DNA from: Rhodocollybia butyracea
Taxonomy: Eukaryota; Basidiomycota; Agaricomycetes; Agaricales; Omphalotaceae
Direction: 5' to 3'
DNA length: 64,000 bases
Assembly: GCA_015501585.1 (NCBI GenBank)
Contig: JADNRY010000260.1
Location: forward strand, 1-64,000
In this document: positions 2,702 to 37,986 of the stretch, in pieces
How the letters are laid out: the number at the start of each line of letters is the position of its first letter
How positions within the stretch are numbered: position 1 is the first letter of the stretch
The notes under the pieces: generated by a model
The model's input: only the letters and a program-made list of their open reading frames with translations
What the model was told of the DNA's origin: nothing
Databases searched by the model: none
Position numbers and translations under genes: made by a program

Positions 2702-2703
2702 TC

Positions 2704-2720
2704 TGGAGCCCACCGCGAGG
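2704..2720 (+). other. Primer binding site of the large Ty3 element
   Basis: TGGAGCCCACCGCGAGG begins 2 nt after the 5' LTR end. It would pair with the 3' end of a tRNA reading ...GGTGGGCTCCA. I have not identified the tRNA. Confidence 0.65.
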
Positions 2721-2721
2721 G

Positions 2722-6628: not shown

Positions 6629-6660
6629 AAGGTGGAAAACCTCGTCGCAGCATACCCAAA

Positions 6661-10897: not shown

Positions 10898-12528
10898 TTA
10901 ACGCCCGCTTGTCTGACGATGTTCAAGGGAAAGTTGACGTACACCTTCTACCATTTCTGAGTCCTCTCTGAACTTCAAAAGGTGGACCAAGCTGTCTGTG
11001 ACTTTCTGAGCTTGGAGAGCACGAGCGTAAAAGACCTGGGTCTTGCTCAGGTTCCCGAGATACTTGTTCCTATGAATATTCAAGAGAACATTGAGATTGG
11101 TATCGGTCATCGAGGCAAAGTCGAGTTCGCCAAATTGGCCGGTCAAAGAAGCAAGGAATTGCTTGGCCACAACGCATTCACGTCGCGCACGGGTAACTGC
11201 GTAACCGATGTAAGTCGGATTTGTTAAAACATGTTATAAATACTCACCAGCATCCTCGGGAGAGCTATCAATGAGCTCAGCGTTGAAACGCATGCGCTTT
11301 CCGTACTCATTGACAAGACTGGCCACTTCATTGGCAACAGGCGTTTCCTCGACTTTCCTCTTAAGTGATGAAGTACTCACTTCACCGGAAGCCTATGTGG
11401 AGACGTCAGCCAAAGTGTTTACAGGGCCCGAGGAAAGGATCTAAGTACCTTGGCCTTCGAGGACTTCCTAGACTCTCGGGTCTTCTTCCTCGAAGCCTGA
11501 GCGCGAGCCAGCGCGTCAGTAATTTCCGGGGGATCCTGGAACTCTTTAGTCAGTACAACCGCTCGTTGATTCCAAGCCCGAGAGCCAAATGGTCCTTTTG
11601 GGAGAGGCAAGCCCAAGCGTGAATGATAACACTACGGTTCCTTCAGCACAGTTATCGTGGGATCCGTACAGGCGCACGCTTCATGGATTTTATAATATAT
11701 GTTAAGAAAAGAGAACTTACAAATGCGATCTGCGTAGCGGGATGATCTTCCTCCATGGGTTCGTCCTCGTCGTCGATGAGAATGGTACCTTTAGAGCTAC
11801 TAGAGCTTTTAGTCGACTTCGAGGGTTCTTTGGACTCCTTGGAGAACGAGATGGTAGAAAGAGCGGCGGATTTTGCCGCATAATCGGTGGTCTTGTCATC
11901 GTTGGCAGCACTGGAAGCCCCTACATCGTGTTTAGACGGAAGGCAGTAGTCCAGGATGGTAGCATAGCGAGGAGGCTTACCGCGAGTAGTGGTGAAAGGG
12001 CCCGGCCCTGTAGTACCAGTGAACCCCAAGGAAACCTTCTTCGACGCCGCCTGGATCGGTATCTATAAGTGTTTGTTCTCGGATATGTTAAAACGGGCTT
12101 ACCAGCGCAAGGTTGAGCTCGTTGATGAAATTGCCGAGGCGCACAGCAGTCGCAGAATGAGCAGTCTTAGCGCTGGGACAGATCTTCATCGCGTGGAGAA
12201 GGAGATCATGTCCTTGTTCAAGGACACCAACATTCGCGGGGAATTTGAGTACTTTCTCCTTATGAAAAGACGTGGTCTATGGAGGCAGGATATCAAGGTC
12301 AGGCTTCCGTGGAAAAGGCAAAAAGAGGCTCACAAGAAGATCGACATGCTTTTGTACAGTACTAAGAACCTCTGCCTGAAGGAGAGTCTGATCCTCGACG
12401 TACTCGATTGCATCACGGAGCCGACTGGTAGCCTCTTTGAGTGTTCTGGTGGAGGCGACGATGGCTTCCATAGTATTCTTCATGAACTGCGGTTTGTCAT
12501 CGGTATTTTGGGTGTTCTTGGAAGACAT
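10898..12528 (-). CDS. Gene A: antisense six-exon cargo gene of the large Ty3 element, 445 aa, family not recognised
   Basis: The model joins exons 12528-12334, 12276-12103, 12062-11721, 11631-11449, 11392-11248 and 11196-10898. All introns are GT-AG (40-89 nt) and the coding total is 1338 nt, divisible by three, with a clean stop. The N terminus is helical (STRTLKEATSRLRDAIEY). The middle is Ser/Lys-rich with a SUMO-interaction-like ILIDDEDE near residues 220-230. Basic, NLS-like stretches follow (KKTRESRKSSKAK, LKRK). The C terminus is helical (KVTDSLVHLLKFRED). The gene lies between pol and the 3' LTR on the opposite strand. Its introns would not be removed from the element's own genomic RNA, which could explain why they persist. 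No enzyme motif is visible. It could instead be a captured host gene. Confidence 0.75.
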
Positions 12529-13589
12529 TGCAGAGAGACTTGTAGTTCGAGGAGAAGTTTTCTGAGAACTGGGTCTTGAAATGTTTTTCGCGGACGCTTT
12601 TATAGGTTAATGTCTTAGAGCGACGGAGTCCTACGGGTCCCCGGCGCGTTCTGAAACCCAAGTGCTCAACTGAGGACAGTTGATATCATTAGTTTGGGGG
12701 AGGGAAGCGCATGGTGCCAAGACACCATAGCTCCAGGCAGTCCACCATCACGAGGAGAATTTTGAATTTATTCAACAACATCTATGACCAAAAATAGGAA
12801 CCATAACATTGCTCAACAAAAGGGAGAACACTAGGCAAAACATAAAGCGAACGCTTAAAGAGTATTAGAAGCGGCACGGGGAAACCTACCGCAGGTACCT
12901 CACCGCGATAATTCTCCGGAAAACGCAAACGCTAGGAAAAACCTTACACCCATGATATCGAGCATCAATGGATTTCATTTTGACGGTCATCACTATGCCC
13001 TAAACAGGACCTGATCCAAGATTGGATGTTGTATTGAAAGAATGTCAATATCTAGGGAAAGATTGCATCGCACCCAGCTTACTTAGGGATGATGAGTCTT
13101 CTCTAGGCTTTCCCTCGAAGACTTGATTACACCTTTAACGAACCGTATAGGTTCCCAAGGGCGGGAATTCAAGTCATAAAAAGCTTTCCGCGAGTATACT
13201 CCCACATGCTACAAAGAGCTGGTACGGTACTCAAGGAAAACTTATGTTATTATAACAAAACTCTCGAGAATAGGCTAGCATGCTGTAAGCCTTTCCGAGA
13301 GTAAACTTAAGACTTAGGAAGTCACTCGAGTATGATATGTACACAGTGACCCGAAGGTCTTGATATTGATAGGCTTTATTTACTATATTCTAAAGGTGCC
13401 TATATACCTAAAGAATACTACGATACTGCCCCAGAGAGGGGAGACAATAGAGAAATCCCCATGCGAGGGGCGAGCAACGAAACACGATATGAAAAGAAAA
13501 TTTATTTAACGTCCGAGGACGAACAGCAATGCCCACGGCAGACCCAGACCCGAGAAGACCACAAACTTAGGAGGAGTGATCTTGGCATC
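12529..13589. other. Intergenic region between antisense genes A and B
   Basis: Holds the probable promoter of gene A (its start is at 12528), an internal copy of the polypurine motif (12685-12702), and the likely 3' UTR of gene B near 13400-13589. No other coding sequence is convincing. Confidence 0.5.
12685..12702 (+). repeat. Internal copy of the polypurine tract motif
   Basis: ATCATTAGTTTGGGGGAG matches 29479-29496 exactly over 18 nt. The 29479 copy directly precedes the 3' LTR. This copy is followed by unrelated sequence, not by an LTR. Confidence 0.8.
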
Positions 13590-14207
13590 TTACGATATCT
13601 CAACTCCCTCCATAAGTTCGTCCTGGGCTTCATCCCGGTCACCGCCAGACGACGTACGAAGAGAACGAGGACTCCCGCGAGGACTAACCATGACCGGCGA
13701 CTGTTCACCTCGAGGACTCCCTGGAGAAAGAATGACCGAATCTTCCACTGGAAGACTGGTTGTTGAACGAGTTGGAGAGTCCAGAGGAGGAGTAGTAGCC
13801 GGAGGGACTTCGAGCGTATCCTCGGGAACAGACCCATCGGGCGCTGGAACAACGGCGACCCGGATGTTCTTGCTAAGGAACTGTTCATACCGTTCATTAG
13901 TCTTGAAACGGAAGTCCAAGTCCCATCCCATGAAGGAGCACAAAAAGCTCCAGTGCGTGAGGTCCAACTGGTTCTCGGGGAATGTTGGAACATAGGATTC
14001 CACGAAAACGAGCGGGTCCTTGCCAATGTGACGGAGCTCCTGAACTTCGCTCTGCAGAGAGGTAAACAGCTTCTCGACCATGCGGTTGAGTTGGTTGCGG
14101 GTCTCGATGGCAGTGTCATAAGCCTCGCGAACACGAAGGACAGTGCTGACTTGCCGGGCCACGTCTATGATAATGTTAGTTAGTAGAAAGTCAGGAAGCA
14201 TTAATTA

Positions 14208-14212
14208 GTACT
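14208..14212. repeat. Left target site duplication of the nested element (GTACT)
   Basis: GTACT at 14208-14212 directly precedes the nested LTR and is repeated at 26788-26792 directly after the other LTR. Removing the element and one copy restores a 51-nt GT-AG intron of gene B (GTGAGTACTAAT...TACTAACTAAC...CATAG). Confidence 0.95.
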
Positions 14213-15152
14213 TGTGAAGAGTCGAGTACAAATCTCCTTTGCCACCAATGTCAATAGGTTCAGTAAGTAACTGGTTCACTAGGCAATGAATTAGCCTAGG
14301 GGTTGAAATATATTTAATGAATACAATCTAAAGAATTATTGTTAGGGCGTAAGTATTACTGGGAAAGCTTCAGTAATCTTCAGGGTTGCTGGGATAATTC
14401 AAGCGTTGATACTATTGGTAAGTCGTCAATAGTATTCGAGGTTTCGAGTCTTCACTATATTGGGATTGACGTCAATATAGGCTTCAAACTATCCACTTAT
14501 CTGGTATGTACTCAGTAAGTATTTAGTTAGGGATGTATGTACTCAAGGATATTCACTCAAGTAAAGTTCAGTTGCAAGTAAGGTGTATTCACGTAGTGAT
14601 GGTTACAAAATAAGAAGTCTGGGGAACCAGAATCGAAATACCATGCATTTTATAGTGTTTCGGGGTACTCCCGGTTCCCTAAATATGACTCGATCTAACT
14701 AAAGATGACTTATCTACTTATTTATTTAAGGCTTTACTACCTACTATAATCCGTGACCATAATGGTGTAATATTGACTCGTTGTGTAATCAAGTCAACCA
14801 TATACAGCTGCGCCTTGACTCGGAAGTCCTAATTGCGCTCCGATCGGTGGTGTACTTCCAGAAGGGTATCATTGATCCCATTGATCAAATGTTGATTTCG
14901 TTGTTTAGCCATCCGATCGGAACATAATAAGTAAGCGCCAGTTGAGCGCTCGCTTCCCTTCCTTACTTCGGGTCCCATACTTTTGGATTCCAATCAGTTA
15001 CAGTGACTTTAAGTAATAGTAACAACCTGGAATACTCGTTACAGTGTCAAGTATGCCTTAGGTACAGTAGAACTGTTAATATGTACACTTTAATGGCAAG
15101 GGAGATGTAAGAATGCAGGAATATGGTGTGACTGCAGGTTCGATTCCTGACA
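14213..15152 (-). repeat. 3' LTR of the nested element
   Basis: 940 bp and collinear with 25848-26787, with one difference noticed by eye (GTACAAATC versus GTACGAATC). Confidence 0.95.
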
Positions 15153-15785
15153 GTATTTCCCCCTTCAACAAGACCGAGCTTTTGAGGTCTGATTTCTGAG
15201 TAGTCTCCTAGTCCTGGTCTCTTACTGCTGATTTCTTAATAATGGGACTACCGGTTAGGTGTTAATTTCTCACACCCATCGATTGTTCGGAGGGGCAAAG
15301 CTGCATTTAAACCTTCCCCATATAGTAGACTCTTTGTCCGTATATCCTATTCCATCGATAATCTGGGGTATGAAAATACAACAGACAGAATTTTTGCAGG
15401 AGGTTGTGAGTAGATTAGGGAAAGCTTCGAAGTTTCCTGACACCGGTTAAGTCATTGCATTACAATGCTTGCCTCGTTGCATTAGGGTGACCTATTCCTG
15501 TGAGCAGCCTTGCTTATTATGGATTTATCCCAAGAGTTTTCGCGTTCAATACCATGCGTCTCCTTGCTCTGTGGGAGCAATTATTCCTTAACTGTTCCGA
15601 AAATCGGTTTATCGTTTCTTCTTGCGCAATTCTCATCAGTTTACGAGTCATAGATGGTGTTGCTATTCATTAACACCGTTCCGGAGGTTGGCCAATCCGC
15701 CCTCTTAAAAGGCCTGAGGTTTGAGTGTTTATGATCAAGGTCCTTGTTGTCCTTTGCGCTTTGAATCACTCTATCAGTCCCACTC
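15153..15785. other. Polypurine tract and upstream region of the antisense gene (nested element)
   Basis: In element orientation GAAGGGGGAAATAC (about 15166-15153) abuts the 3' LTR start and is the polypurine tract. The rest, about 620 bp, has no coding potential and would hold the promoter of the antisense gene starting at 15786. Confidence 0.65.
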
Positions 15786-17289
15786 ATGACATCTACTGCT
15801 TCTAACATTATGATGGTATCTCCCCATCGTACCGGGTCTACTCTCCCTCCCTATGAGGCTGCATCCCAGACCTTAAACTCTTCCACTTCTGAGCCGTTGG
15901 ATCAGGCCGTGATGCGCCAGGTTCTGGCGCATCTTGCTGAGGACCCTCGGTTAGCTGAATTGAACTTTGATATTCCTGGTTTGGGACGTACTACCTTCAA
16001 CGTGAATCATCTCCCAATCTCCGTTGTTCAAGCTCTATTAGCAGTAGCACTAGCTGTGAACACCGAGGTAGACCGCAATGATGAGTGAGTAACTAATTCT
16101 GTTCTCTTGTATCGTCAATTGAAAGGTCATTTCTAGTGCGACTTTCCGACTGTCCATAGAGCAACATGAGCGCGATGCAGGGTCTGCGGAAACCATCGCT
16201 AATTTGGAGATGTATGTAATTCCTCCCTTTTTCCGTTGATCTTCTTAGCTAATTTGTTTTTAACAGTTCCAACGCTGCTCTTTCCGCACATGCACAGCAA
16301 TTCGAAGAGGACTACTACACTTTGGATAGTAAATATAATAGTTTGTTGGGGTATGTCATCCGTTTCACTTTCCTTGTATGTGACTAACACTTGGTTATAG
16401 ACAATACACCAAGCTCGAACAGAAGATGGATAAATTACGTCGACGCCACCGCACCGATGGTCGTGTTAGGAAGGTGGTCAGGGAGTCTGGAGACCGCATT
16501 CATGCTCTCGAAGATGCAAATCACTCTCTTCAAACAGATAACGGATTGTTAGTGGCCCGGAGTGATGACCTTCAGGGACGCTTAGATGAAGCCGAGGCAT
16601 TGGTCCGCAATTGTCGGCAGGAGCTTGTTTTGCTTCAAGCCACTCATGCTACATCGATCCGTGACTATAATCAGCTAGTCATCATGTACCAGCACGTATC
16701 TGCCTATCTTCAGTACTACATGGGCGCCTCAAAAGATCTTGCCATGGTAGTACAGACTTTCGCCAAAAGTAACTTGGCACACTTCATGGTAGCTATCGCG
16801 GATGATCTAGATAAGGCTCGCATACATGCTTGTGAAATGGTCTGGAAGGATCAGGATTCTGCCAACGATGTTCGTACTCAGATTATTGATGACCTGGATT
16901 GTTTGTCATCGATGGTGGATGCCGCGATGAAATCCTCTAACGCCGTTCAGAAATTTGATTCTCGTATCGGGAACCCGGTTGAATTTTCAACCCGTTTCGT
17001 TCCCATGTCCGGTTCCTATGCCTGGGACCTTGCTCAAGGTGAATATGTGTTCCGTCGGGTAGTTGACAATCTTCCTGCTTTTTTGACTGGCGCCATGTCA
17101 GCTAAGGCGATGGGTAAACGCGTTAGATTCGACGATGAAGTTTCCGTCTCTGAGGATGGGAACTTGGTATACCCTAGTCCTAGGATTTTGGAGTCTCCCG
17201 AGTACCAGCCTTATTCCCCCGTTCTATCTCCTTTATCTGTTCAATCGTCTGATTCTGATATTCGTGAAATCCTTCCCTTCGATGTATAA
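15786..17289 (+). CDS. Antisense four-exon cargo gene of the nested Ty3 element, 448 aa coiled-coil protein
   Basis: Exons 15786-16084, 16137-16211, 16267-16350 and 16401-17289, all with GT-AG introns of 50-55 nt, give a 1347-nt frame with a clean stop 66 bp from the pol stop. The predicted protein has a short N-terminal region (MTSTASNIMMVSPHRTG), then long heptad-like helices (LEDANHSLQTDNGLLVARSD, LQGRLDEAEALVRNCRQEL), and a basic-then-acidic tail (GKRVRFDDEVSVSEDGN) ending in Ser/Pro-rich sequence. It is antisense to gag-pol and sits between pol and the 3' LTR, exactly as genes A and B do in the host element. I see no sequence similarity to them and do not recognise the family. The nearer exon 2 acceptors lead to stops; the TTCTAG at 16136 keeps the frame open. 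Confidence 0.75.
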
Positions 17290-17355
17290 TTTCAAATTCC
17301 TTAAACAGATTAGTACATTTTAAATAGAATTGTACATGGAATTCAATTGACTGCT

Positions 17356-19995
17356 TCACTGTGTTTGTGTTTCGCGTTCCCATTCGGATTCCTTAAGTTT
17401 ATTCTTCTCGGGATGGAGAAAATGGAACTCCTCCACCGACTCTTCAGCCCTGGGTAAGTGTGCAATAGGTTCCCATGTATCGTGTTCCGGGCCATATCCT
17501 TCCCATCGGATGAGATACAACATCTTCCCTCTAACTCTCTTACAATCCAATACCTCTTTAACTTCATATTCTTCTCCTCCATCTAGTTCTACTGGGGGTT
17601 GGGGTGCTGATTTCCTAGCAGGAAAATATTCGGGTGGTTGTACATTTAGTAAATCAACGTGAAATACATTGTGAATTCTTCCCATTATTCCTGGCAATTC
17701 TAGCCTGTAAGCATGTGTTGATATCTTATCTTTGATCTTAAACGGCCCGAATTTCTTGTAATCCAATTTCTTGGATGGGCGTTTAGTTTTGATATTCCTT
17801 GTGTTTAGCCACACCTTTGTTCCTACTCCCCACTCGGAACTCTCTTCTCTTCGCTTCTTATTAACCTGCTTCTCATATTGTGTGTTAGCCCTATGTATCT
17901 CTTCCTTTAAGTATTCATGAACCTGTTTCAATTCCCTTGCCTTAAGATGAGCCTTATGGCTAGGAACCGCCTTCAGAGTTAGTGTTAGTCTAGGATGATA
18001 TCCTTTATTGGCAAAGAAGGGAGTAACACCAGTAGCATCACTAGGTGTATTATTGAACACAAACTCTGATAAAGGTAGCCATTCCACCCAATCATCTTGG
18101 TCATAGTTAACAAACATCCTAAGATATTGTTCAAGGGTTTGATTTGTTCTTTCAGTTTGTCCATCAGTCTGGGGGTGGTATGCTGTTGATAAATTCTGTT
18201 TAATCCCAAGTAATGTGCACAATGATGTCCATAGTTTGGAGGTAAAGAGTGTTCCACGATCTGATATTATGTCAACTGGAAGGCCATGTTTCGAGAATAC
18301 ATCCCTTATGAACAATCTTGCTAGCTCATCAGATTTATCTGTAGTTCGGCATGGTACGAATATGGCTTGTTTAGTGAGCCTACATACTACTACCATGATC
18401 GCATCATAGCCCTCTGACATGGGGAGCTCTACAATATGGTCAACAGATATTGAGCTCCAAGGTCGTTCCCCTATTGGTAAGGGTTTCAGTAGCCCAAATT
18501 TCTTTAGCCTTATTGCTTTCCCTCTTTGGCAGTCATGACAGGCAAGTACATATCGTTTAACATCCTTGTGGAGTCCTGGCCAGAAGTAGGTCCTTAGAAT
18601 CAATTTCTGAGTCTTCCTTATCCCTGGATGTCCCCTTAATTTATGATCATGATGTACTTGGAGGATTCTTAGTCGGAGTTCCTCAGGTACATATATTCTA
18701 CCATCTCGGAGTAGTAATCCATTCTCCACTTTGTACATTCCGGGGTCATCTGAGTTGGCTACTTTCTCCATGTGTTCCCAGTATTGGTCGTGAGTTGACT
18801 TTCGGATTTTGGCAATGTCCGCTTCATCATTGAGTATTATGGAAGCCAACAATTGCTCTGGGTTTAGAAGAATTTTTTGATTGTTTTTGTTGGCTTGCAC
18901 TATTCCCCCCTTTTTAGGATAAACATCCGCTCGTCGGGTGAGTGCATCCGGTTTCATTCCCAGTCGACCTGGCCGGTAATTAATATGGAAGTTGAATCCT
19001 GATAAGAATTCTGACCAACGTGCTTGCCTCCTTGTCAAATTCTTTGTTGTAGTGAACCACTGTAGATTATTGTGGTCAGTAAATACTTCAATTTTATACC
19101 TTGCTCCTTCCAAGTAAGCTCTCCATTGCTTGAATGATTCCACAATTGCTAACATTTCCTTGTCATATATGTCGTAATTTAGTTCAGCCGCTACTAGGCC
19201 ACGCGCAAAAAATGCAATGGGGTGGAATTCTCCTGTCTCCGGGTTGAACTGAGATATTACTGATGCATCAGATTCCACAATAATGGGTAAGTCTGTCCTA
19301 AAATGTCGTAGTACCGGGGCTTCGGTGAACGCCCTTTTTAGTAGGTCAAATACAGACTGGCATTCTACACTCCATTTCCATTCAGTATTTTTCTGCAACA
19401 ATTTAGTTAGTGGTTTCACAATCCCTGAAAAATTGTCTATAAATCTTCTGTAAAAGTTAGCAAATCCTAAGAAGGATTGTAATTCTTTCAGAGTGGTTGG
19501 TTCTGGCCATTTCATTACTGTCTCTACTTTCTTTGGGTCCATCCTTATGCCTTCTGGGGAGACAATTACCCCCAAATACTCTACCTCTGTAGTGTGGAAT
19601 TCACATTTTTCTGGCTTTACATGTAAGTCCTGATCTTGTAGTCTCTGTAGGACCTGCCTAACATGTTCTTTGTGTTCCTTTTTGTTATTGGAGTAGATCA
19701 ATATATCATCCAAGTAGACCACCACAAAATTGTCTGTTAGGTCATGGAAAATATCATTCATAAAATACTGGAAGTATGATGGTGCATTAGTTAGCCCAAA
19801 CGGCATTACTAAATATTCATATGATCCATATCTAGTCCTGAATGCAGTTTTCCACTCATGGCCATCTGCTATCCGAATATTATTGTATCCAACTCGTAAA
19901 TCCAGTTTGGTGAATATTTTTGCCTTGCCTAATTGGTCAATGAGGTTGCCTATTAAAGGGAGGGGATACCTGTTCTTTTTAGTTAGTTTGTTCAA
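17356..19995 (-). CDS. RT, RNase H, integrase and chromodomain of the nested Ty3 element
   Basis: An 879-codon frame. RT shows KLDLRVGYNNIRI, MPFGLTNAPSYFQYFMN and catalytic YLDD. The first RNase H motif reads VESDASVISQ where related elements usually have ETDASDFA-x-GAVLSQ, so about 6-7 residues appear missing. Integrase has an H2C2 finger (HPGIRKTQ...CHDCQ) and a D-D-E core ending YHPQTDGQTERTNQTLEQ. The C terminus carries a chromodomain (EYEVKEVLD...YLIRWEGYGPEHDTWEP), which in chromoviruses directs integration to marked chromatin. The true start lies upstream, but the link to protease is broken by a deletion near 20030, so full-length Pol cannot be made from this copy. Confidence 0.9.
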   Translation of the reverse strand: MNKLTKKNRYPLPLIGNLIDQLGKAKIFTKLDLRVGYNNIRIADGHEWKTAFRTRYGSYEYLVMPFGLTNAPSYFQYFMNDIFHDLTDNFVVVYLDDILIYSNNKKEHKEHVRQVLQRLQDQDLHVKPEKCEFHTTEVEYLGVIVSPEGIRMDPKKVETVMKWPEPTTLKELQSFLGFANFYRRFIDNFSGIVKPLTKLLQKNTEWKWSVECQSVFDLLKRAFTEAPVLRHFRTDLPIIVESDASVISQFNPETGEFHPIAFFARGLVAAELNYDIYDKEMLAIVESFKQWRAYLEGARYKIEVFTDHNNLQWFTTTKNLTRRQARWSEFLSGFNFHINYRPGRLGMKPDALTRRADVYPKKGGIVQANKNNQKILLNPEQLLASIILNDEADIAKIRKSTHDQYWEHMEKVANSDDPGMYKVENGLLLRDGRIYVPEELRLRILQVHHDHKLRGHPGIRKTQKLILRTYFWPGLHKDVKRYVLACHDCQRGKAIRLKKFGLLKPLPIGERPWSSISVDHIVELPMSEGYDAIMVVVCRLTKQAIFVPCRTTDKSDELARLFIRDVFSKHGLPVDIISDRGTLFTSKLWTSLCTLLGIKQNLSTAYHPQTDGQTERTNQTLEQYLRMFVNYDQDDWVEWLPLSEFVFNNTPSDATGVTPFFANKGYHPRLTLTLKAVPSHKAHLKARELKQVHEYLKEEIHRANTQYEKQVNKKRREESSEWGVGTKVWLNTRNIKTKRPSKKLDYKKFGPFKIKDKISTHAYRLELPGIMGRIHNVFHVDLLNVQPPEYFPARKSAPQPPVELDGGEEYEVKEVLDCKRVRGKMLYLIRWEGYGPEHDTWEPIAHLPRAEESVEEFHFLHPEKNKLKESEWERETQTQ

Positions 19996-20039
19996 TGCCC
20001 TATAATCAACACAAAGTCTCAGGCTGCCATCCTTCTTTT

Positions 20040-21427
20040 TTACTCTTTCAATGCCTTGAGCTCCAATTCAGACATGTTATACAATTTCCCCAATGGTGGT
20101 AATTTGTTATCTTCCGTGTTTACCTCAATATCATAGGGACGATGTGGCGGTAGAGTCTTGGCTTCTCCTGCTGCAAATACCTTTGCAAAATCATGGTACT
20201 CTACTGGCACATATTTGGTTAAGGTTTCTTCATCACTTGCTAAAGAGGCTCGTTCCGGTACTTGACCCGTAAGTTTGATTTTGTTTTTCGGAGTGATCGG
20301 AGTGATCGGAGCTTCTGCGTTGGTGTCTAGCGGCGGAGTGGTAAGTTTGTTTAGCTCTTCCCACTCGTGGATCTCCCCACTCAGCTTGTAGTGCAAAGTA
20401 AATGTTTCACACCCTGATTGGGCAAGTTTTGCAAATGCTGCCGCATTTACTATCCCAAATTTGGGTCCACCTACGGTATCCCTCCAGCGTGTGTTATGGT
20501 TGCGCCTAGGAAACTGTCTTTTCTCCCCTCTGATTGATTCCTTCTCTCTGTCTCTTTTCCTTTTCTTATAGGTTTTGTGGTCCTCTTTTCGCTGTTCTTT
20601 TCTCTTAATCTTATAATATTCCTCTAGTTCATCAATATGCAAAAGTAGAGGGTCATTTAGAGTCAGTCCTGGCCATCTAGGTAGACACTCTTCTTTGACC
20701 TCCTCAATTAACACTGATGTCCCCAATTCCTGTTTATGGGTTTTTTCACTACCACACTGTCCACTTTGGTTGGGTTTAGTCTTTCTGTACTCCTGGTATT
20801 CATCTTCTCTCAATAAAATTGGGTCTTGCAGACTTAGTGTTGGTAATTTGTCTTCCTTTTCTGGTATTACTTCTATAGTTGGTCTAGGCCAATTTATATT
20901 CTGTGTAGCATGACTGAAGATTGAGGATCCACTGTCTACAGTTACTGCTGCTAGCTGAATGCCCTGTTGGAAGGATACCTTAAGTTGCTTCCAATCTATT
21001 GCTGGATTAAATTTTCGTAGCCAAGGAAGGCCCAAAACCACGGATGCACTTGGGTGAAGTTTTGTTACTAGGAAGGTTACTCTCTGAGTAGTTCCATCCT
21101 CAAAGAAAATATTTGTTTCTAGTTTCTGAGTTATTTTCCCTCCTGATGTCAATTCTCCGTCAAATAACGTCAAGGGTATCGGTTCTGGTAATGTTATTAG
21201 TTGGTTTTTGAATTTATTTGCTAGAGTTTCGTCAACAAACTCCCTAGACGCCCCTGAGTCTATTAAGGTATAACAAGGATTTGACTCCTTACTATGGAAG
21301 TTTATGGGTAGTAAAAGAGAATTTTCGGATGTGGAGTTTAAAGTAATGGAAGTTGCAAACAATCTTTCGGAGCTCACTGCTCTAAGACCCCGAACCGCTC
21401 CTTCATGGTCTTCGGAGTCCTTGGCTA
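20040..21427 (-). CDS. Protease and linker part of nested Ty3 Pol, truncated before RT
   Basis: Entered by -1 frameshift from gag. The aspartic protease motif LIDSGASREFVDE is intact, and PSASVVLGLPWL fits the conserved downstream region. A long charged linker follows. The frame ends at a stop right after ELELKALKE. Related chromoviruses continue here with about 25-30 residues of the RT N terminus before VKKKDGSLRLCVDYRALN. That phrase appears immediately after the stop in another frame, so a short out-of-frame deletion has joined the two parts. Confidence 0.8.
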
Positions 21428-24400
21428 GTTTCCCGAGTCATTGTCTAGCATTTCCAATATCGGATCGTCCATGTGTACTGGTTCATCAAAGCCTTCAATG
21501 TCCAAGTATACTGCATCTTCTAGTTCATATTCCTCCATAAATGCTCCTCTTGCAGTAATAGATTTAGGTCCATTTTTTCTGAAGTGTTCGCGGTATCGGT
21601 GCTCTTTAGAGCCACATATCCCGCATTCCCCGCTTCTCATACGTCGGTTCCACTCATCCTGTGGTATTCGCGGGTAAGTACTTGAGGATTCCTCTACTGT
21701 ACTTGTAGTGGTATTACTTTCGGTAGTGGCTTCTAATAGTACCTCTTCTTGATTTTCTTCATGGGCTGCTGCTCTACCTGTGGCAGTAGTTGGGGTGGTC
21801 CTTTGATTGTATCGAAGATTTGGGGGTTTTGTGTTTGCCTCTGGAGTTTTGGTGTAGTTTACTGCTGTAGAATTATTGTTAGTGTTGTTTGTCCAGTTGC
21901 GCATTACTCCCAATCCTATTTCGCTAAATGCCTGTTTAGCACTGTCCAACCGCATCAGTTTTTGGACCACTCCAGCAAATGTTTCTGGTATATCTCCATG
22001 ATCCACCAGACGGCTCCGCAGGTCGGATCGGATTTGTTTAAGCATTCTCCATCGGAGTGCATTGTCATTATAATTAGTTAGCAATGCAATGTCCTCAAAT
22101 CTTACCAAGAAATCTGCAAAAGCTTCAGACCACCGTTGAATACAACCATCCAGTTTGGATTGAGCAGTAAGTACTTCATCGTGAAGTCCAAACATTTCCT
22201 CAAACAGTGTTAGGAAGTTATTCCAAGTAGTGAGAGCTGGGATGTGTTCTCCACTCCTTTGCTTCCGCATTAAATTCTGGTGGTAACGCTTAGCTGGCCC
22301 CTTCATATTAGAAGCCGCAAATGCAATTTTGGCCACATCATTGTTGTAGATCCTAGACTTGGCTGTAAAAATATTTTCACAACTGTCCCGGAATTCACGC
22401 CATTCCTCTCTATTTTCTCCTGAGAAAGGGGTTGGTTTGGTGATGTCCAATTTTGCCTCACGGTTCATTTCCTCTTTCTCCCTCTCCCTTCTCTCCTTCT
22501 CTTCAGTGATCTCACCATTTCTTACTTCTCTTCCGTCGCGGCCATCACGGCCATCTCTCCCCCTCTGGGAGTATCTTCCACCCCATCCCCTCCTATGTCC
22601 TTGCCAACTCCTCCCATCACTGTCAGATTCCGAATCCCCATAATATCCATTACCTCCCCCATTTGGCGAGCCTCCTCCTCCATTTCCATCTCTTATGGGT
22701 GATGTACTTCGGCTAGAATTAGCTCTGTTGGAAGTATATGATGTGTGCCGGTTTCCATTGTTAAATGGCGGTCCACTTCTTCTTCCTCCTGTGCCCACCT
22801 TCAAGTGAGTATTCCCATACTTTGAGTTTTGTGGTGTAATAGCCTCCTCATCACCACTGTTAGGTGCAGAGCTATAGGGGTCTGTTGGGGGGTGACCACC
22901 ACCTCCTCTTCGTCCAGTCTCCTGAGAGTGCAGTTTCATGATCTGTTGGTTGTTAGTGGCATTGTTATTTTCTGTCTCAGGGCTGTTACCCCTGGTGTTA
23001 CCTGATTTATCCTTTGATGGGGGGCTCCTATTTCCACTTGTCACATCCATATCTTGCTCACTATTATTGTGCTCCAACTTTTGCATGTCACTCCCCTTGC
23101 TGTTAATATAAGAATTTTCACTATTGAAAGAAGGATGATCACTCCATGGCTTGTATCCATTTCCCTCTAATTTAGTGGAGATACTTCCATAGTCACCAGA
23201 AGTTGTGATGAAAGGATCTTTATTGTCTCTCTGCTTCTGTTGTTGGCTTGATTCTGTGTCAATAGACTCCTTTCTTTTCCCTTTATTGGGAATATAGGGA
23301 TATTCATATCCTGATGGTCCTGCAGTTGAAGTTCCTACTCCAGGTCTGGTATCCCTCTTGTAAGGATTCATGTAAGTAGAAACACTTTCTTGTATTGCCT
23401 GATGTGGAGGTAGATCTTTCACAAAGTCTCCAGTTACTGGTCCTGAGTTTGTCCTTTCTGAGATTTCAGGGTCCCTTTCAGGCGTAGTGGGGGGTGTTAC
23501 AATTCCCCTAGGGTTTGGTTCATTTTCTTTCATTCTTTTCCACTCCATACCTCTTTTCTTACTATGATTCACAGATTTTTCCTGAATCATAGTTTGAATT
23601 GTAGATGTATTGGTTTCTTGTTCATTGATGGATGCCCTTTTAGTATCCTTTCTCCACTGTAAAAATTCGGCAGTTAGTTCAGTTATGGATTGGTCTTCCT
23701 CAGGCTGTTCAATGTTAGTTTCTCCATTACTTGTACTTAACCTTTTAGGTCCTTGTTGTTGGAAGCTTCGGGCTAATGCCAATTGTTGTTGATATTGTTT
23801 CCAGTCCTGTTCTAGATATGGGGGGACCGGATCGGCCTCATCTGAGTATTGACGTTCCGGGGGAATTTCCTCCCAAGCTTCTCCTGTAGTACTGGTACTG
23901 CCATAGCGCATGCGGCGTGGAATTAGGCTTGGCCGGGGTGGAAATTCCACTTCCGAGCTGGACGTAATATTTGCCACATTCATAGGTTCTTCTTGAATTA
24001 TCTGTTGCCTTGGTGCCCACGGCGTGTCACGTCGAGCTCTCCTATGCTGGTTTTGATTTAGGGGAGTTATCCCATGGTCTTGCGCAGGTGATAGTAAGGA
24101 AGATTCCTCCCCCAATGGTGTTGGAAAGGCATCTTCAATTGAGCCTTGATAACCAATGTCTGATTCCCTTAGCCTGCTATTACTCCTTCCCTGACTGGAA
24201 CTTTGATTTGATACTGCCAGGGTTATTTCCGAGGGGAATGATGAATCTTCAATGATTTGGGCAAACTCTCGTCTCCTAGTCTCGAGTTCCAGACCTAAAA
24301 TAATATCAATATTATCTCCTTGGAATACCTGGGATAATTCAGGAGTAAATGAATCTTTATTAACGTTGGCCAGATCCCTTAACATCCGTAACCAACCGAT

Positions 24401-25816
24401 TGGTGTTCTGCGTGAATTGGGTGTAAATCCAAGTCTTTCCAGTAACACTCTAGCTCTGTTTCCTAGTGTGCCTAGTCCCAAACGCATCGCTTCAGCTTCT
24501 AGTCTTCTTCTCCTTTCTTCATCAGAGCTATATGCTGTATGACTACTACTAGGTGATCGAGTAGTCATAGGGGATAGCATTTCCATATTTGCTCTTAACT
24601 GTAGAATTCTCCTCTTAGTACTGATCACTTCGGGAGGAGATTGGTGAGGAGATTCTACTATAGATGAAAGCCAATCATTATTCTCAACAATGTTGCGATA
24701 GGGTTGCCCTCGAATAGTACGTACATAATGATTAAGCAGCCGTGCATTTCGGGGGTCTCGTATATTGTTTGCTAGATTAAGAGGAAGTTCATAAAGTGGG
24801 TTTGTAGCCAATGTTTCCAGTAGCCATAACCATCCTACTGCCGTTCGCTCCCCTTGGTCTTGTATACCCAATCTAACGAGTAGATCCCTGACAAGGCGTG
24901 CCATTTCATGTAATTGTTCTCGAGTTCTCCTATATTCTTCCCTATCTCTTAATTCCGGGAATTCACTCTGAGTAAAGTTGAGTGGTTCTTGAGAAGAGTG
25001 AACGCGTAAATTGTCATTATAACTATCGGGATTTTCCCCCATAATTGCACGGTACTGTTCCGCATAATTTCTGGGTCGGGATAAATTTATATCCGTGTCC
25101 CGTGGAGTAGAGTGATCAATAGGTGTATCCAAGAAAATAAACCTTTCCCTAAAATGTTCTGACCCCTCTCGACCTTGAGATGGCGTGACTATAGGCATTT
25201 GGGATCCAGTCTCTTGAGGATAGACCACTACTTCGGAGATACGGTCTTCTCCTAACGATTCTGATGGATGATTCGCTTCACGAAAAACATTTGATGTGTC
25301 AGGTGGTTGCGATGGAGCGGTCATGTAAGCCGTGGGTGTATGCGGCAACTCCTGTGTTCGTTCCACAAGTTCTGCAAGTAATTGCTGTCCCATACTTGGT
25401 GGAGAGACAGTCAATCTAGACGCCGGGGCATCAATCTGATTTTCCAACTCCGTTTGTAAATCAACTTGATAAGGTTCCGGGCGTATAGGCATCCCAGCAG
25501 ACTCTCTTGTGTAGTATTGGTGTTGAAAAGAACGTTCCGGTTCCGTTGGGGCCTCTATGTTTCCGAAGGTCGTTAATCGGGCCGCACGCAATCGCGTCGG
25601 AGATAATGACATAGATCGGTTCCGGGGATTTCGTCCCAAAGGCCAGCCGCGTTCAGGGAAGTATAGTGGCGTATTTTCCGTGGTTGTCGCTTGTGATGGT
25701 TGATTTGTGACTCGTCGTATGACATTCGAGTCTGGTGTGATCATATGGACAGGATAAGAGATTGATTGTGTAGCCAATCGTTCCATTTCTTCACGGGTCC
25801 GAGTAATTGTAGTCAT
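21425..25816 (-). CDS. Gag of the nested Ty3 chromovirus, 1463 aa with a long N-terminal extension
   Basis: The typical Retrotrans_gag region is near the C-terminal end (KPTPFSGENREEWREFRDSC onward), followed by a zinc-knuckle-like C-x2-C-x4-H-x4-H in which the last Cys is replaced by His. Most of the protein is a roughly 1000-residue extension rich in Ser, Asn, Pro and Gln, with Gly-rich and RDGRDGRDGR tracts. Residues about 303-388 and 443-532 look like two copies of one helical domain (LLVRLGIQDQGERTAVGWL and LLERLGFTPNSRRTPIGWL). The stop TAG at 21425-21427 comes directly after a GGGAAAC slippery heptamer, which would give Gag-Pol by -1 frameshifting. The frame is fully open, as expected of a recent insertion. 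Confidence 0.9.
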   Translation of the reverse strand: MTTITRTREEMERLATQSISYPVHMITPDSNVIRRVTNQPSQATTTENTPLYFPERGWPLGRNPRNRSMSLSPTRLRAARLTTFGNIEAPTEPERSFQHQYYTRESAGMPIRPEPYQVDLQTELENQIDAPASRLTVSPPSMGQQLLAELVERTQELPHTPTAYMTAPSQPPDTSNVFREANHPSESLGEDRISEVVVYPQETGSQMPIVTPSQGREGSEHFRERFIFLDTPIDHSTPRDTDINLSRPRNYAEQYRAIMGENPDSYNDNLRVHSSQEPLNFTQSEFPELRDREEYRRTREQLHEMARLVRDLLVRLGIQDQGERTAVGWLWLLETLATNPLYELPLNLANNIRDPRNARLLNHYVRTIRGQPYRNIVENNDWLSSIVESPHQSPPEVISTKRRILQLRANMEMLSPMTTRSPSSSHTAYSSDEERRRRLEAEAMRLGLGTLGNRARVLLERLGFTPNSRRTPIGWLRMLRDLANVNKDSFTPELSQVFQGDNIDIILGLELETRRREFAQIIEDSSFPSEITLAVSNQSSSQGRSNSRLRESDIGYQGSIEDAFPTPLGEESSLLSPAQDHGITPLNQNQHRRARRDTPWAPRQQIIQEEPMNVANITSSSEVEFPPRPSLIPRRMRYGSTSTTGEAWEEIPPERQYSDEADPVPPYLEQDWKQYQQQLALARSFQQQGPKRLSTSNGETNIEQPEEDQSITELTAEFLQWRKDTKRASINEQETNTSTIQTMIQEKSVNHSKKRGMEWKRMKENEPNPRGIVTPPTTPERDPEISERTNSGPVTGDFVKDLPPHQAIQESVSTYMNPYKRDTRPGVGTSTAGPSGYEYPYIPNKGKRKESIDTESSQQQKQRDNKDPFITTSGDYGSISTKLEGNGYKPWSDHPSFNSENSYINSKGSDMQKLEHNNSEQDMDVTSGNRSPPSKDKSGNTRGNSPETENNNATNNQQIMKLHSQETGRRGGGGHPPTDPYSSAPNSGDEEAITPQNSKYGNTHLKVGTGGRRSGPPFNNGNRHTSYTSNRANSSRSTSPIRDGNGGGGSPNGGGNGYYGDSESDSDGRSWQGHRRGWGGRYSQRGRDGRDGRDGREVRNGEITEEKERREREKEEMNREAKLDITKPTPFSGENREEWREFRDSCENIFTAKSRIYNNDVAKIAFAASNMKGPAKRYHQNLMRKQRSGEHIPALTTWNNFLTLFEEMFGLHDEVLTAQSKLDGCIQRWSEAFADFLVRFEDIALLTNYNDNALRWRMLKQIRSDLRSRLVDHGDIPETFAGVVQKLMRLDSAKQAFSEIGLGVMRNWTNNTNNNSTAVNYTKTPEANTKPPNLRYNQRTTPTTATGRAAAHEENQEEVLLEATTESNTTTSTVEESSSTYPRIPQDEWNRRMRSGECGICGSKEHRYREHFRKNGPKSITARGAFMEEYELEDAVYLDIEGFDEPVHMDDPILEMLDNDSGN
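21428..21434 (-). promoter_or_regulatory. Programmed -1 ribosomal frameshift site (GGGAAAC)
   Basis: In the gag frame the heptamer reads G GGA AAC and is followed at once by TAG. Slipping back one base enters the protease frame (GKLAKDSEDHEGAVRGLRAV), which is open through to the protease. Downstream, CCGAA and GACC could pair with TTCGG and GGTC in crossing order, a possible pseudoknot. AAGACC with GGTCTT could instead form a simple hairpin. Confidence 0.65.
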
Positions 25817-25834
25817 TGAATATATTGCAACAAG

Positions 25835-25846
25835 AGACTTCTTATT
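25835..25846 (-). other. Primer binding site of the nested element (self-priming type)
   Basis: AATAAGAAGTCT starts 1 nt after the 5' LTR end. It does not begin with TGG, so it does not match a tRNA CCA end, but it is fully complementary to 26255-26244 in the LTR. Confidence 0.65.
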
Positions 25847-26243
25847 ATGTGAAGAGTCGAGTACGAATCTCCTTTGCCACCAATGTCAATAGGTTCAGTA
25901 AGTAACTGGTTCACTAGGCAATGAATTAGCCTAGGGGTTGAAATATATTTAATGAATACAATCTAAAGAATTATTGTTAGGGCGTAAGTATTACTGGGAA
26001 AGCTTCAGTAATCTTCAGGGTTGCTGGGATAATTCAAGCGTTGATACTATTGGTAAGTCGTCAATAGTATTCGAGGTTTCGAGTCTTCACTATATTGGGA
26101 TTGACGTCAATATAGGCTTCAAACTATCCACTTATCTGGTATGTACTCAGTAAGTATTTAGTTAGGGATGTATGTACTCAAGGATATTCACTCAAGTAAA
26201 GTTCAGTTGCAAGTAAGGTGTATTCACGTAGTGATGGTTACAA

Positions 26244-26255
26244 AATAAGAAGTCT
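26244..26255 (-). other. Putative mRNA 5' end and self-primer of the nested element
   Basis: AGACTTCTTATT in element orientation is a perfect 12-nt complement of the PBS at 25846-25835. In Tf1-type elements the first nucleotides of the mRNA pair with the PBS and prime reverse transcription. Confidence 0.6.
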
Positions 26256-26282
26256 GGGGAACCAGAATCGAAATACCATGCA

Positions 26283-26289
26283 TTTTATA
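26283..26289 (-). promoter_or_regulatory. TATA box of the nested element's 5' LTR
   Basis: TATAAAA in element orientation. It ends 28 nt upstream of AGACTTCTTATT (26255-26244), the segment complementary to the PBS. That is the spacing expected if the mRNA starts at this segment. Confidence 0.6.
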
Positions 26290-26787
26290 GTGTTTCGGGG
26301 TACTCCCGGTTCCCTAAATATGACTCGATCTAACTAAAGATGACTTATCTACTTATTTATTTAAGGCTTTACTACCTACTATAATCCGTGACCATAATGG
26401 TGTAATATTGACTCGTTGTGTAATCAAGTCAACCATATACAGCTGCGCCTTGACTCGGAAGTCCTAATTGCGCTCCGATCGGTGGTGTACTTCCAGAAGG
26501 GTATCATTGATCCCATTGATCAAATGTTGATTTCGTTGTTTAGCCATCCGATCGGAACATAATAAGTAAGCGCCAGTTGAGCGCTCGCTTCCCTTCCTTA
26601 CTTCGGGTCCCATACTTTTGGATTCCAATCAGTTACAGTGACTTTAAGTAATAGTAACAACCTGGAATACTCGTTACAGTGTCAAGTATGCCTTAGGTAC
26701 AGTAGAACTGTTAATATGTACACTTTAATGGCAAGGGAGATGTAAGAATGCAGGAATATGGTGTGACTGCAGGTTCGATTCCTGACA

Positions 26788-26792
26788 GTACT
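26788..26792. repeat. Right target site duplication of the nested element (GTACT)
   Basis: Matches 14208-14212 exactly. It also forms part of the splice donor region of gene B exon 7 on the minus strand. Confidence 0.95.
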
Positions 26793-29030
26793 CACTAATC
26801 GGTGCGTTCTCTGCCGACTTGTACGTATTGTTGAGCACCTCGACTAGTTCCGGCACATGAAAGGTGTCTGAACAAGGTTGGTGCGACGTAGCACAGTTTG
26901 GACATCCAGTCCCATACTTACGGTTACTGTGTTCGTCACAGGCATACGAGCAGTCCGGCTTATCCTGCTTATCCTCTCCCTTGGTACCCTTGGTATGGCA
27001 ACCGCCACACTGGATGCAAGGGTTCTCACGGATAACAGCCGGAGTCTGAAAATCATGTTAAAATTTAAATTATCGATAAACTGAAAACTTACTCGACACA
27101 ATGCGCGGTTCGCTCGGACAAAGTCCAACCAAGACATTTGGTGATCGCCCGTGCTGAGTGCAGGAAGATCCTTGAAGGCATCTAACTCAGGAGTAAGGCC
27201 CCAAGTGAGCTCAGCCTTAAAGAGTTCCTTTGGCTTCTGCAATAAAAAGGCCGAAGTGTTAGTCTTGAAAGGTAGAGAAAAACGGAATAGAACTTACTTG
27301 GGTCCCCTTGGGGACAATCTCGTCAAAAGACGGCAGATCCATGGCATCACGCTCGAAATGAACAATCACGGTGCGGTATTCTCGAGATCCACTCTTTGCG
27401 AACTCTTTGGATGATTGTGCAGCGAGTCTCTTGAAGATGTTGTCGAGGTCAACGTTTCCCACATCTCCCTCGGGAACAAGGAAAACCAAGTTCTCGGGCG
27501 GAGTATGCACAGGTGTAGGTTCACGAGAAGACTCCGCAAGTGGGGCCCCCTTGATCTTAGAACTGGAAGCCACGGGAACGGGGATCTCGACAACCGGATT
27601 GGACTTCTTGACAGTCTTGAGTTTAGGAGCGGGACGAGGGACAGGAAGGGATGCAGCCTCGATTTCTTCCGTGGGCTAATTCTGACGTTTGCGTTTCAGT
27701 TTGGGCTAGGAAAAATGAGACAGTCAGAATCCGGGAAAAGAGAAAGGAGAGTAGGAACTCACGGTGATCACGGAGGGGTCCCCCTCTTTGCCTTTGCCTT
27801 TGCCTTTCGGCTCTACTATCCTATCCTTTCCTTTAGTCGAGACTGAAGCATTGCTCCCTCTCGCCGGACCTTTTGCTTTCAGAGCCTTCGAGGTCATCGA
27901 AGGTCTGGTCGCCGAACTAGTTGCCAATTTAGATGTGACAGTCGCTGGTTTAGCCTTGGGCTCAGCTTTCACTTTGACCTCAGCCTTTGAGGGAAGTGGA
28001 GGTTTAGACGAAGTCTTCTTGGCAACTGTAGCACTGCGAGTAGAATGACGAGGGATCTTGCGGGATTCCGAGGAGTCCTAAAAAGAAATATTAAAAGTTA
28101 AAAGGATAACAATATAAATAAAACGGGGAAAAGGTACCTCTGAGTTCACGGAAATAGCCTCGTAAGGCGATGCCCTGTCCTCGGAAGGACCGTCTTCATC
28201 TGAGGCTTCTTCCTCCTCCTCCTCGTCGGTAGGTTCACCGGTGTCCAGCCGACTAAAGTGGAGGTCACCTTGAGTTAATAACCACGCCGATTCACAACAT
28301 CCCTGGTCAAAAGGGAGAGGAATGGGAAGGTCGGGTGTCTGTCCGCGATGGAGGGCGCTCGCCTAGGAAAAGTTAATAAAAAGAAAAGATAAAGTTAGTG
28401 CGAGCCACGTACCAGGATCCGGTCAATAAGAGCCCCATCCAAGTACCAGCTTGGTTCCGTGTCGTTGAGCTGTAAAGCGCTTCGGACAGCGGCGGAAAGG
28501 CGTTGGGCAGCAGCAAAAATGCCTTCGATAATTAAAGGAACATTCTTATGTCCCACAACATGGGTACGGAGGAATTTCTATCATAACATAAGATAAATAC
28601 GTTAATAAAGGACAAAAAGGGGGCTTACCAGTCGATTAGCGAGAGCAATAAAACTGGTACGGTATTCTTTCGCCTTGGGCAAAGACGGAGTCCACTCGGG
28701 GTCCTTGGCTGCCTCGAAGAGTTGAGGGTTAAAGCGTTGCTGAACAGCAGTAGCACAGGCCCATATCATCCGTGCAGAATAAGCCGAGGGGACGTCCCTT
28801 TTGTCGAAACCAAGACCCCGGGTTGTTGGAAAAAGAAAGAATTGGTTTGCGTAGCGTCGGCGGCATTGTCGAATCTCGCAACAAGATGGCTGGCCAGTTC
28901 ATAGAAGGATGGAAGTACGCGTTTTAAAGTCATCTAGAATGTCCGAGGAATTGTCTTCACATGTTATGGACAAGTACATATCGACGAGCGAGTCGGGAAG
29001 AAGGTCACACTGCTCTCGGTCGGCAAGCAT

Positions 29031-29478: not shown

Positions 29479-29496
29479 ATCATTAGTTTGGGGGAG
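29479..29496 (+). other. Polypurine tract of the large Ty3 element
   Basis: ATCATTAGTTTGGGGGAG lies 1 nt before the 3' LTR start at 29498, the position expected for plus-strand priming. Confidence 0.75.
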
Positions 29497-29497
29497 A

Positions 29498-37467: not shown

Positions 37468-37986
37468 GGGAGAGTATATCTAGCTTCGACATATGCAGAT
37501 TCGTATATCCGCCGTAACAAGAGTCCCTGCCATTTGTGAGTACTTGAGTCGTGACCTCCAAAGAAAGGAACATTGGAACTGACAACTTCGCGCGTCCGAG
37601 TTGCTGATGACGGCTGTGTAGACTCCACGCTACTAGACGCTACTCCACGTTGGTGAAGAGCGTAAAATAAAGTTTAGCCCTAGCTAGAGATTTATAAAAA
37701 TCGGTGCCAGATTTTCTTTCTGCAGTGCTGCATTCCTGTCATAAATTATTTACGGTTTCGTAGAACCTCGACTAATGCTTAGAGAACGGCCAGTTCAAGT
37801 GCCAGGCACACGTCTCCGGTACCTCGGAGGCTAATCAAGGGGCGGAAATCCAGCTAACTCCAGCCGCATGGTCACGAAACGTTGGACAAATTACGATAAA
37901 AACAGCGGGCGGGGCAAATTCTCTCCCAACTGCTGGCTCAGTTCAAACTCACACAGAACGACCGAAGACCCTTCGGCTCATTTTCA
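37468..37986. promoter_or_regulatory. Intergenic region and duplicated promoter block of paralogue 2
   Basis: About 37570-37865 repeats the block upstream of paralogue 1 (GGCTGTGTAGACTCCACGCT, then GGCACACGTCTCCGGTAC). The genes therefore duplicated with their 5' flanks. No other gene is seen. Confidence 0.6.

Follow-up and report, generated by a model that had tools for sequence, protein, structure and literature searches.

Predicted intron-rich antisense genes in Ty3 retrotransposons of Rhodocollybia butyracea, one of them in divergent and exchanged alleles

Genes and features of the locus

A stretch of 64,000 nucleotides (nt) from Rhodocollybia butyracea (contig JADNRY010000260.1, positions 1 to 64,000; hereafter the window) was analysed for genes lying antisense inside long terminal repeat (LTR) retrotransposons of the Ty3 type. 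The window contained two nested Ty3-type elements, the outer one on the plus strand and the inner one on the minus strand; without the inner insertion, the outer element measured 17,896 nt. Two genes, designated A and B, were located on the minus strand between the outer pol and the terminal polypurine tract (PPT) and 3' LTR. An earlier note, made from the letters of the window alone, had placed them there, and with pol, the LTRs and the PPT located this arrangement was confirmed. A third gene, C, was located antisense to the inner element. The features of the outer element were as follows.

862..2701, plus strand: 5' LTR of the outer element (TATT...AATA), 1840 nt
2702..2722, plus strand: presumed primer binding site of the outer element, assigned by inspection
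6499..10452, plus strand: pol open reading frame (ORF) of the outer element, with reverse transcriptase (weak RVT_1), RNase H and integrase
10898..12528, minus strand: gene A, 7 exons, 406 amino acids (aa)
12528-12334, 12276-12103, 12050-11981, 11920-11670, 11535-11449, 11392-11248, 11196-10898, minus strand: exons of gene A
13589..29030, minus strand: gene B, 8 exons by homology to an unbroken copy; broken in the window
29030-28629, 28577-28413, 28362-28138, 28077-27763, 27705-27298, 27236-27093, 27045-26796, 14164-13589, minus strand: exons of gene B
29479..29497, plus strand: terminal PPT of the outer element, directly 5' of the 3' LTR, sequence AGTTTGGGGGAGA
29498..31337, plus strand: 3' LTR of the outer element, 1840 nt

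A Pfam search found reverse transcriptase, RNase H and integrase in the outer pol in Ty3/gypsy order. RNase H and the integrase zinc domain scored above the Pfam cut-offs, and RVT_1 (17.4 bits) and rve (20.4) below them. With E values up to 1 admitted, no chromodomain (Chromo) was found in the outer pol, so the outer element was not classed as a chromovirus.

The gene models were computed from genomic sequence. Gene A, given in the earlier note as 6 exons and 445 aa, was modelled as 7 exons and 406 aa. For gene B the 8 exons held, and the length of about 817 aa was replaced by 827 aa in the unbroken copy L015 (copies are cited with the prefix L, contigs with C); in the window copy, exon 1 has two 1-nt indels and exon 5 a stop, so that the gene is broken. 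Copy L015 represents one of two types of gene B, B1. In the other type, B2, copy L013 encodes 845 aa; where exon 5 joins exon 6, its model is uncertain, as are those of its near copies L019 and L024. The last intron of the window gene B hosts the inner element; with this element removed, the intron reads GTGAGT...CATAG and matches that of the insertion-free L015.

Spliced-ORF scores were computed per strand and compared with 20 dinucleotide shuffles of each region. The antisense score was 28.3 for gene A (shuffle maximum 11.7), 43.6 for gene B in the C494 copy (15.7) and 28.5 for gene C (14.4). These scores exceeded all 20 shuffles, and chance ORFs were ruled out for all three genes; on the sense strand of the same regions, the scores were not above all 20 shuffles.

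Recurrence of genes A and B with the element

The genome searched was the assembly of the window itself, 95.6 Mb in 1381 contigs. With 40 candidates scored in each search, of 51 for A, 58 for B and 68 for pol, gene A was found at at least 40 places, gene B at at least 40 (nine of them at 66-77% identity) and the outer pol at at least 41. The 3' parts of 20 copies, picked by gene A (the rate of A loss is therefore not measurable in this set), were fetched for comparison. Gene B lay behind A in 19 of the 20, the exception (L025) stopping at a contig end; L026 (contig C472), at first scored as lacking B, had B2 matches inside the fetched stretch. A 3' LTR followed B in 18 copies; L025 ends with its contig, and no 3' LTR was found in the fetched stretch of L026. 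The pol end stood directly before A in 16 copies, while in C487 and C494 pol matches lay further upstream and L023 and L027 stopped at contig ends.

An interior B without a whole A on contig C495 adjoined the element spacer and a cut A, and represents a remnant of the element. No standalone A or B was proved in this genome, with the B places on contigs C202, C747, C520, C47, C458 and C780 and the A-like places on C1238, C357 and C555 left out; the place on C158 ends with its contig. Recurrence with pol and LTR, the C495 remnant and the conservation of the proteins described below support the earlier proposal that A and B are cargo of the element rather than neighbours.

Two further observations concern these genes. 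Distant homologues of the C-terminus of gene A, at 52-59% aa identity, were present on C1238, C357 and C555. Copy L028, considered as a third type of B, proved to be a B2 gene with an insert of about 1.2 kb inside exon 1.

Gene C and the inner element

The features of the inner element were as follows.

14213..26787, minus strand: inner Ty3 chromovirus, LTRs 14213-15152 and 25848-26787, target site duplication (TSD) GTACT
17356..25885, minus strand: gag/pol ORFs of the inner element, stop to stop 21425-25885, 20040-21437 and 17356-20067 (chromodomain)
15786..17289, plus strand: gene C, antisense to the inner element, 4 exons, 448 aa
15786-16084, 16137-16211, 16267-16350, 16401-17289, plus strand: exons of gene C

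The inner element is complete and young: its LTRs, 940 nt each, differ by 1 mismatch in 940, and GTACT stands on both sides. Its pol ends with a chromodomain (Chromo, E 1.5e-12), which places it among the chromoviruses. Homologues of gene C were found at 16 genomic places, the best stretch at each place being 54-100% identical in aa. At 15 of these, the end of a pol of the same clade lay within 150 bases on the opposite strand (tail-to-tail), and the remaining place, on C71, was at a contig start. Conversely, gene C stood beside 15 of 16 pol places of the inner clade (best stretch at least 67%; best 150 of 217 candidates scored), C535 being without it. From this comparison, gene C appears to descend with its pol.

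Antisense spliced ORFs were also sought behind four pols of more distant chromovirus clades, with 15 shuffles each. The scores were clear for C567 (24.2 against a shuffle maximum of 10.7) and C1309 (25.6 against 15.4), borderline for C591 (17.2 against 16.2) and not above shuffles for C779 (19.1 against 19.3). The products of C567 and C1309 matched each other at 62 bits, and that of C591 matched gene C at 40 bits. Together with gene C, these results point to antisense genes in several Ty3 clades of the genome.

The inner gag ORF (21425-25885) has 1486 codons stop to stop; by eye, about 1000 residues precede the capsid-like part.

Purifying selection on the encoded proteins

Nonsynonymous (dN) and synonymous (dS) divergence, or the corresponding proportions of differing sites (pN, pS), were compared between copies. 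For gene B, B1 and B2 (L013) gave dN 0.43, dS 2.5 and a ratio of 0.17 over 674 codons, with exon order kept; B1 gave a ratio of 0.20 with L024 and 0.17 with L011, and with L018 dS was saturated and pN/pS was 0.41; with dS close to saturation, these between-type ratios are rough. For L018 and L011, whose models are partly broken, the calculation was confined to the part that aligned well. Among B2 alleles, dN/dS was 0.15-0.21.

For gene A, comparison with six diverged copies gave pN/pS of 0.16-0.24 in five and 0.61 in one; the pooled value of 0.28 includes C794 (0.61, degenerate, one stop) and C1049 (one stop). Seven near copies gave a pooled pN/pS of 0.16. For gene C, the window and C441 gave dN/dS of 0.08 over 448 codons; exons were 83.9% and introns 61.3% identical, and the exons were gap-free. 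The proteins of A, B and C are maintained by purifying selection.

Divergent and exchanged alleles of gene B

Segment identities were compared among 18 copies, 8 with B1 (including the window) and 10 with B2; L025, L026 and L028 were excluded. Between B1 and B2 copies, B itself was on average 56.5% identical, whereas A averaged 99.2%, the 3' LTR 96.1%, the spacer 95.2% and the stretch after B 94.0%. In all 80 between-type pairs, B was at most 57.2% identical, A at least 98.0% and the spacer at least 94.6%. The lowest LTR identity was 83.7% between types and 82.6% within B2, where some LTRs have inserts. The gag of six B2 contigs (C379, C920, C712, C487, C459 and C494) was 96-99% identical to that of the window, and no divergent gag tract was found in these six contigs when matched to the gag query.

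Comparison of L010 with L013 in 100-base blocks showed identities of 96-100% up to 3000, 93% in the last 300 bases before the B end, 48-77% in most of B, 72% at the B start and 95-100% in the next 2 kb. B2 was itself a set of mosaic alleles, with mutual identities of 71-100%. For L013 and L014, identity was 94-100% over the C-terminal 40% of B and fell to 62-81% over the remainder; about 400 bases past the B start were more weakly divergent (87-92%). L014 and L018 were 95-100% identical in the N-terminal fifth of B and 83-100% near its end, with 63-88% between.

A flank tree was built from the A side and the 3' LTR of 17 copies (L012, L025, L026 and L028 excluded). This tree rejected B1 as a single clade (approximately unbiased test, p 0.0023) and required three changes of B type, two of them forced by well supported branches. 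The segment identities, the mosaics and the flank tree indicate that old B alleles have moved between young, near-identical elements. These comparisons showed what appear to be ancient, recombining B alleles carried by a young, uniform element.

Protein features and sequence signals

Pfam searches with cut-offs covered A, B and C. Gene A gave no match, and gene C gave 15 weak matches (E at least 0.025), all below cut-off and none to PF04195. A heptad count for A, B and C gave no signal above shuffles. The three genes were also considered as mutual homologues, which was ruled out: blastp gave E below 0.1 only for B1 with B2.

Both types of B (L013 and L015) contain the cysteine pattern C-x2-C-x15 (or 18)-C-x15-C-x2-C-x6-C, which we take to be Zn2Cys6-like, and a basic KRKR stretch. 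AlphaFold models had a mean predicted local distance difference test (pLDDT) score of 58 for exon 8 of B, confident only in a long first helix, and of 47 for exon 4 of gene C, helical at low confidence. From these features we infer that B may be a dimerising nuclear protein, possibly one that binds nucleic acid.

The motif GKRVRFDDE stands at residues 391-399 of gene C and GKRMRF at residues 291-296 of gene A; the former is a candidate RVxF motif, through which proteins dock to protein phosphatase 1.

Two signals were located between A and B.

12598..12604, minus strand: TATAAAA box, some 70 nt 5' of the start codon of gene A
12685..12702, plus strand: internal PPT copy, 18 nt, between A and B, duplicating 29479-29496

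The TATA box upstream of A was kept in 21 of 21 copies (20 fetched and the window). The internal PPT copy, a possible central PPT, was exact in 20 of the 21 and absent in L028. The spacer between A and B was also considered as an old LTR; this was ruled out by blastn against the LTR, gag-pol and the stretch after B, which shared with it only the 18-nt PPT and 12-nt chance words.

Ends of the outer element

The flanks of the window copy differ: the 5' side ends ACAACGG and the 3' side begins ACGACTTTG (ACGAC...). Taken as 4-bp duplications, they read ACGG and ACGA, one base apart. The 3' flank is a copia element (RVT_2 match), of which other copies, on C1349 and C1049 and in an 80% copy on C909, have the empty target site; the sequence before this site in the three copies is unlike the 5' flank of the window. 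The empty copia sites and the unmatched 5' flank argue for a window copy that is recombinant or misjoined at its ends, not one clean insertion. The earlier note had assumed one element with matched LTRs, which would fail if the pair belonged to two separate insertions. Judged by its flanks, the window copy amounts, or nearly amounts, to such a pair. This does not extend to the family, nor to C494, which has the identical architecture, both LTRs and the TSD GCGC. The LTR flanks of C712 are also non-matching. C303 (L042) has the same junction of 3' LTR and copia as the window, and both may be haplotypes or duplicates of one locus.

A central CG was present in the four bases after the 3' LTR in 9 of the 12 fetched copies with a readable end (L010-L027), and in the four bases before the 5' LTR in 5 of 5 (window, L033, L034, L036 and L048). 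With the GCGC pair of C494, the central CG on both sides makes it likely that the outer family duplicates 4 bp at NCGN targets.

Elsewhere in the window, at 36783-38992, a 44-nt unit occurs in six copies, 64-100% alike, that resemble repeated exon/intron joints. The unit contains GTAAG, and GCTAACAT is present in most copies.

Proposed mechanism and alternative explanations

The position, strand and recurrence of A, B and C, their splice structure above chance, the purifying selection on them and the exchange of B are the observations from which the interpretation starts. A, B and C are very probably accessory genes resident in Ty3 retrotransposons, where they occupy the antisense strand of the region from pol to the 3' LTR. 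This explanation as a whole is given a confidence of roughly 85%.

Under this mechanism, A, B and C would each be expressed from an opposite-strand promoter of its own, and their introns, being unrecognised in the genomic RNA, would survive reverse transcription. Their products would be nuclear accessory proteins regulating the element; the odds on such a nuclear regulatory role are about even. The earlier note had suggested, as possible roles, regulation by antisense overlap or protein functions in chromatin or nucleic-acid binding. B would be a specificity or interference factor acting on element copies in one nucleus, and old B classes would persist since a copy with a rare B escapes interference. 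When co-packaged RNAs are reverse transcribed, template switching or strand assimilation would carry divergent B cassettes from one copy to another. This model of interference and exchange, to us the likeliest mechanism for B, is tentative and less probable than not. The PPT duplicates on both sides of B could start plus strands and perhaps aid cassette exchange, an aid weakly supported in view of breakpoints lying nearer to B than to the PPTs. The fuller proposal, in which B is a specificity gene in a two-PPT cassette, its ancient classes are kept by negative frequency dependence and copies thereby coexist or escape, is rather doubtful. The LTR, gag and A do not co-vary with B to any comparable degree, which makes another B or a host factor the likelier partner of B than a part of the element, and on this ground a role in interference or self-recognition is favoured, beside a neutral sweep of the backbone and other kinds of regulation.

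Several points weigh against this reading of B. Gene B showed no sign of positive selection, its dN/dS being low, and diversifying selection would follow from the persistence of old alleles only; the between-type ratios are, as said, rough. On the flank tree the B types showed partial clustering (6 of 500 shuffles reached as low a value), no other compared segment varied with B to a similar degree, and the exchange breakpoints lay near the ends of B, away from both PPT copies. Among 18 copies, 6 gave plain 8-exon models of B, 5 collapsed within 70 codons and 7 had odd joins, so that many copies, that of the window included, are broken. Nothing in Pfam matched gene B above cut-off, the sole B2 hit being DUF2937 at E 0.24, and a PDB sequence search with B2 gave no match.

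In a rival reading, a highly active backbone of gag, pol, A and LTR has spread recently, recombining with its older relatives, and the diverse B alleles are functionless relics of old families. Such a sweep would account for segments averaging 94-99% identity around a gene with near-saturated synonymous sites, for low dN/dS of B without positive selection and for the partial clustering of its types, and template switching would give the observed allele mosaics. It is harder to reconcile with the confinement of the divergence to B, against A and spacer, in all 80 between-type pairs, with gag free of a divergent tract in the six B2 contigs and with a flank tree on which B type must change three times, well supported branches forcing two of these changes. 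We regard it as a serious possibility, though not a probable one.

The antisense transcripts themselves might do the work, by overlap with the genomic RNA or silencing through double-stranded RNA, with the proteins secondary. Given the layout, such transcripts would necessarily overlap the genomic RNA in its 3' part, and control by double-stranded RNA has been proposed for antisense genes of this position in plants, in the available part of a review (PMC7264820). The amino acids of all three proteins are nevertheless under purifying selection, and the exons of gene C are far better conserved than its introns; this explanation is unlikely.

A little less likely still is a host origin for A, B and C, whether the element captured them by transduction or they are neighbouring host genes misread as cargo. 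Spliced, intron-bearing genes resemble host genes, and a cysteine cluster of the B type is common in fungal regulators. However, no standalone copy was proved in the genome, C495 being a cut element and C158 ending with its contig; C lies beside pol at 15 of 16 places, the sixteenth being a contig start; and none of the three has a Pfam match above cut-off.

Very improbable is an assembly artefact in which collapsed or chimaeric repeats yield the mosaic and the antisense layout: the assembly is in 1381 contigs, several ending inside copies, the flanks of the window and C712 are mismatched and the 3' junction of the window is shared with C303, but A occurs at at least 40 places, 20 of them read with identical layout, B1 in 8 and B2 in 10 of 18 copies have flanks of like kind, and C494 is complete with its TSD.

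Comparison with known systems

Additional genes that lie antisense in the interval from pol to the 3' LTR form a named class, aORF-3R, reviewed for plants in the available part of PMC7264820. The plant members (Grande gene23, RIRE2 and PvRetro13) resemble the genes of R. butyracea in their antisense position between pol and the 3' LTR, their presence in most copies and their conservation at protein level (PMC7264820, in part). Here, too, B and C were present in most copies, B in 19 of the 20 picked by gene A and C beside 15 of the 16 pols of its clade, and A, B and C were conserved as proteins. For the Grande gene, an own promoter and a nuclear product have been reported (PMC7264820, in part). 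Introns, a spliced antisense pair and allelic diversity are not described in the available part of that review, whereas the outer element of R. butyracea carries two genes of 7 and 8 exons, with B in swapped forms.

In the available part of PMC11963269, antisense coding regions were reported in all recently active Retand elements studied, with a long region from pol to the 3' LTR, and 97% of Retand clusters encode TRP28. Retand resembles the outer element in this long antisense-coding region and in not being a chromovirus. PF04195, the TRP28 family, was not among the Pfam matches of A, B2 and C, and the word "intron" is absent from the text of the Retand paper (PMC11963269).

In fungi, an antisense gene, brtn, is known in Boty of Botrytis (Zhao et al. 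2011, as cited in the available parts of PMC7264820, PMC8365987 and PMC4227169), and Boty of Botrytis and Sclerotinia is also named in PMC7264820. Boty has a chromodomain (PMC4227169, in part) and, like the inner element with gene C, is a fungal Ty3 element with an antisense gene; its host Botrytis cinerea is an ascomycete, whereas R. butyracea is a basidiomycete, and brtn and C are likened by description only. The deltaretroviruses (HBZ, APH-2; PMC11963269, in part) likewise have an antisense retroelement gene with a nuclear regulatory product. They differ in their animal hosts and in an antisense promoter within the 3' LTR (PMC7264820, in part), and are also likened by description only.

The word "antisense" is absent from the available main text of a paper on fungal LTR elements (PMC3248453). 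In largely non-subscription literature, as titles and the starts of abstracts, neither intron-rich antisense genes in basidiomycete elements nor allelic diversity of antisense element genes were found. The earlier description of A and B as an undescribed class therefore stands in part: the intron-rich pair and the allelic variability of B were not found described in the literature covered, whereas antisense genes in fungal Ty3 elements were already known from brtn, and their class already had the name aORF-3R. Relative to the literature covered, two intron-rich genes per element, their occurrence in several Ty3 lineages and B as ancient recombining alleles appear new.

For decades, accessory genes antisense to LTR retrotransposons have been on record with no function assigned to them. 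Those described here have many introns, are conserved by purifying selection, occur as a pair in one element and are found in at least two Ty3 lineages of a single fungus. Placing a gene on the opposite strand would be a simple route to the retention of introns in a retroelement.

Retroviral env interference groups are a case in which one gene occurs in divergent, recombining types and the rest of the retroelement is uniform. The comparison with B is one of pattern only, B being antisense and intron-bearing. If selection keeps the diversity of B, its function becomes testable by comparing B types, and retrotransposons would own a gene for self-recognition or control comparable to the env interference groups.

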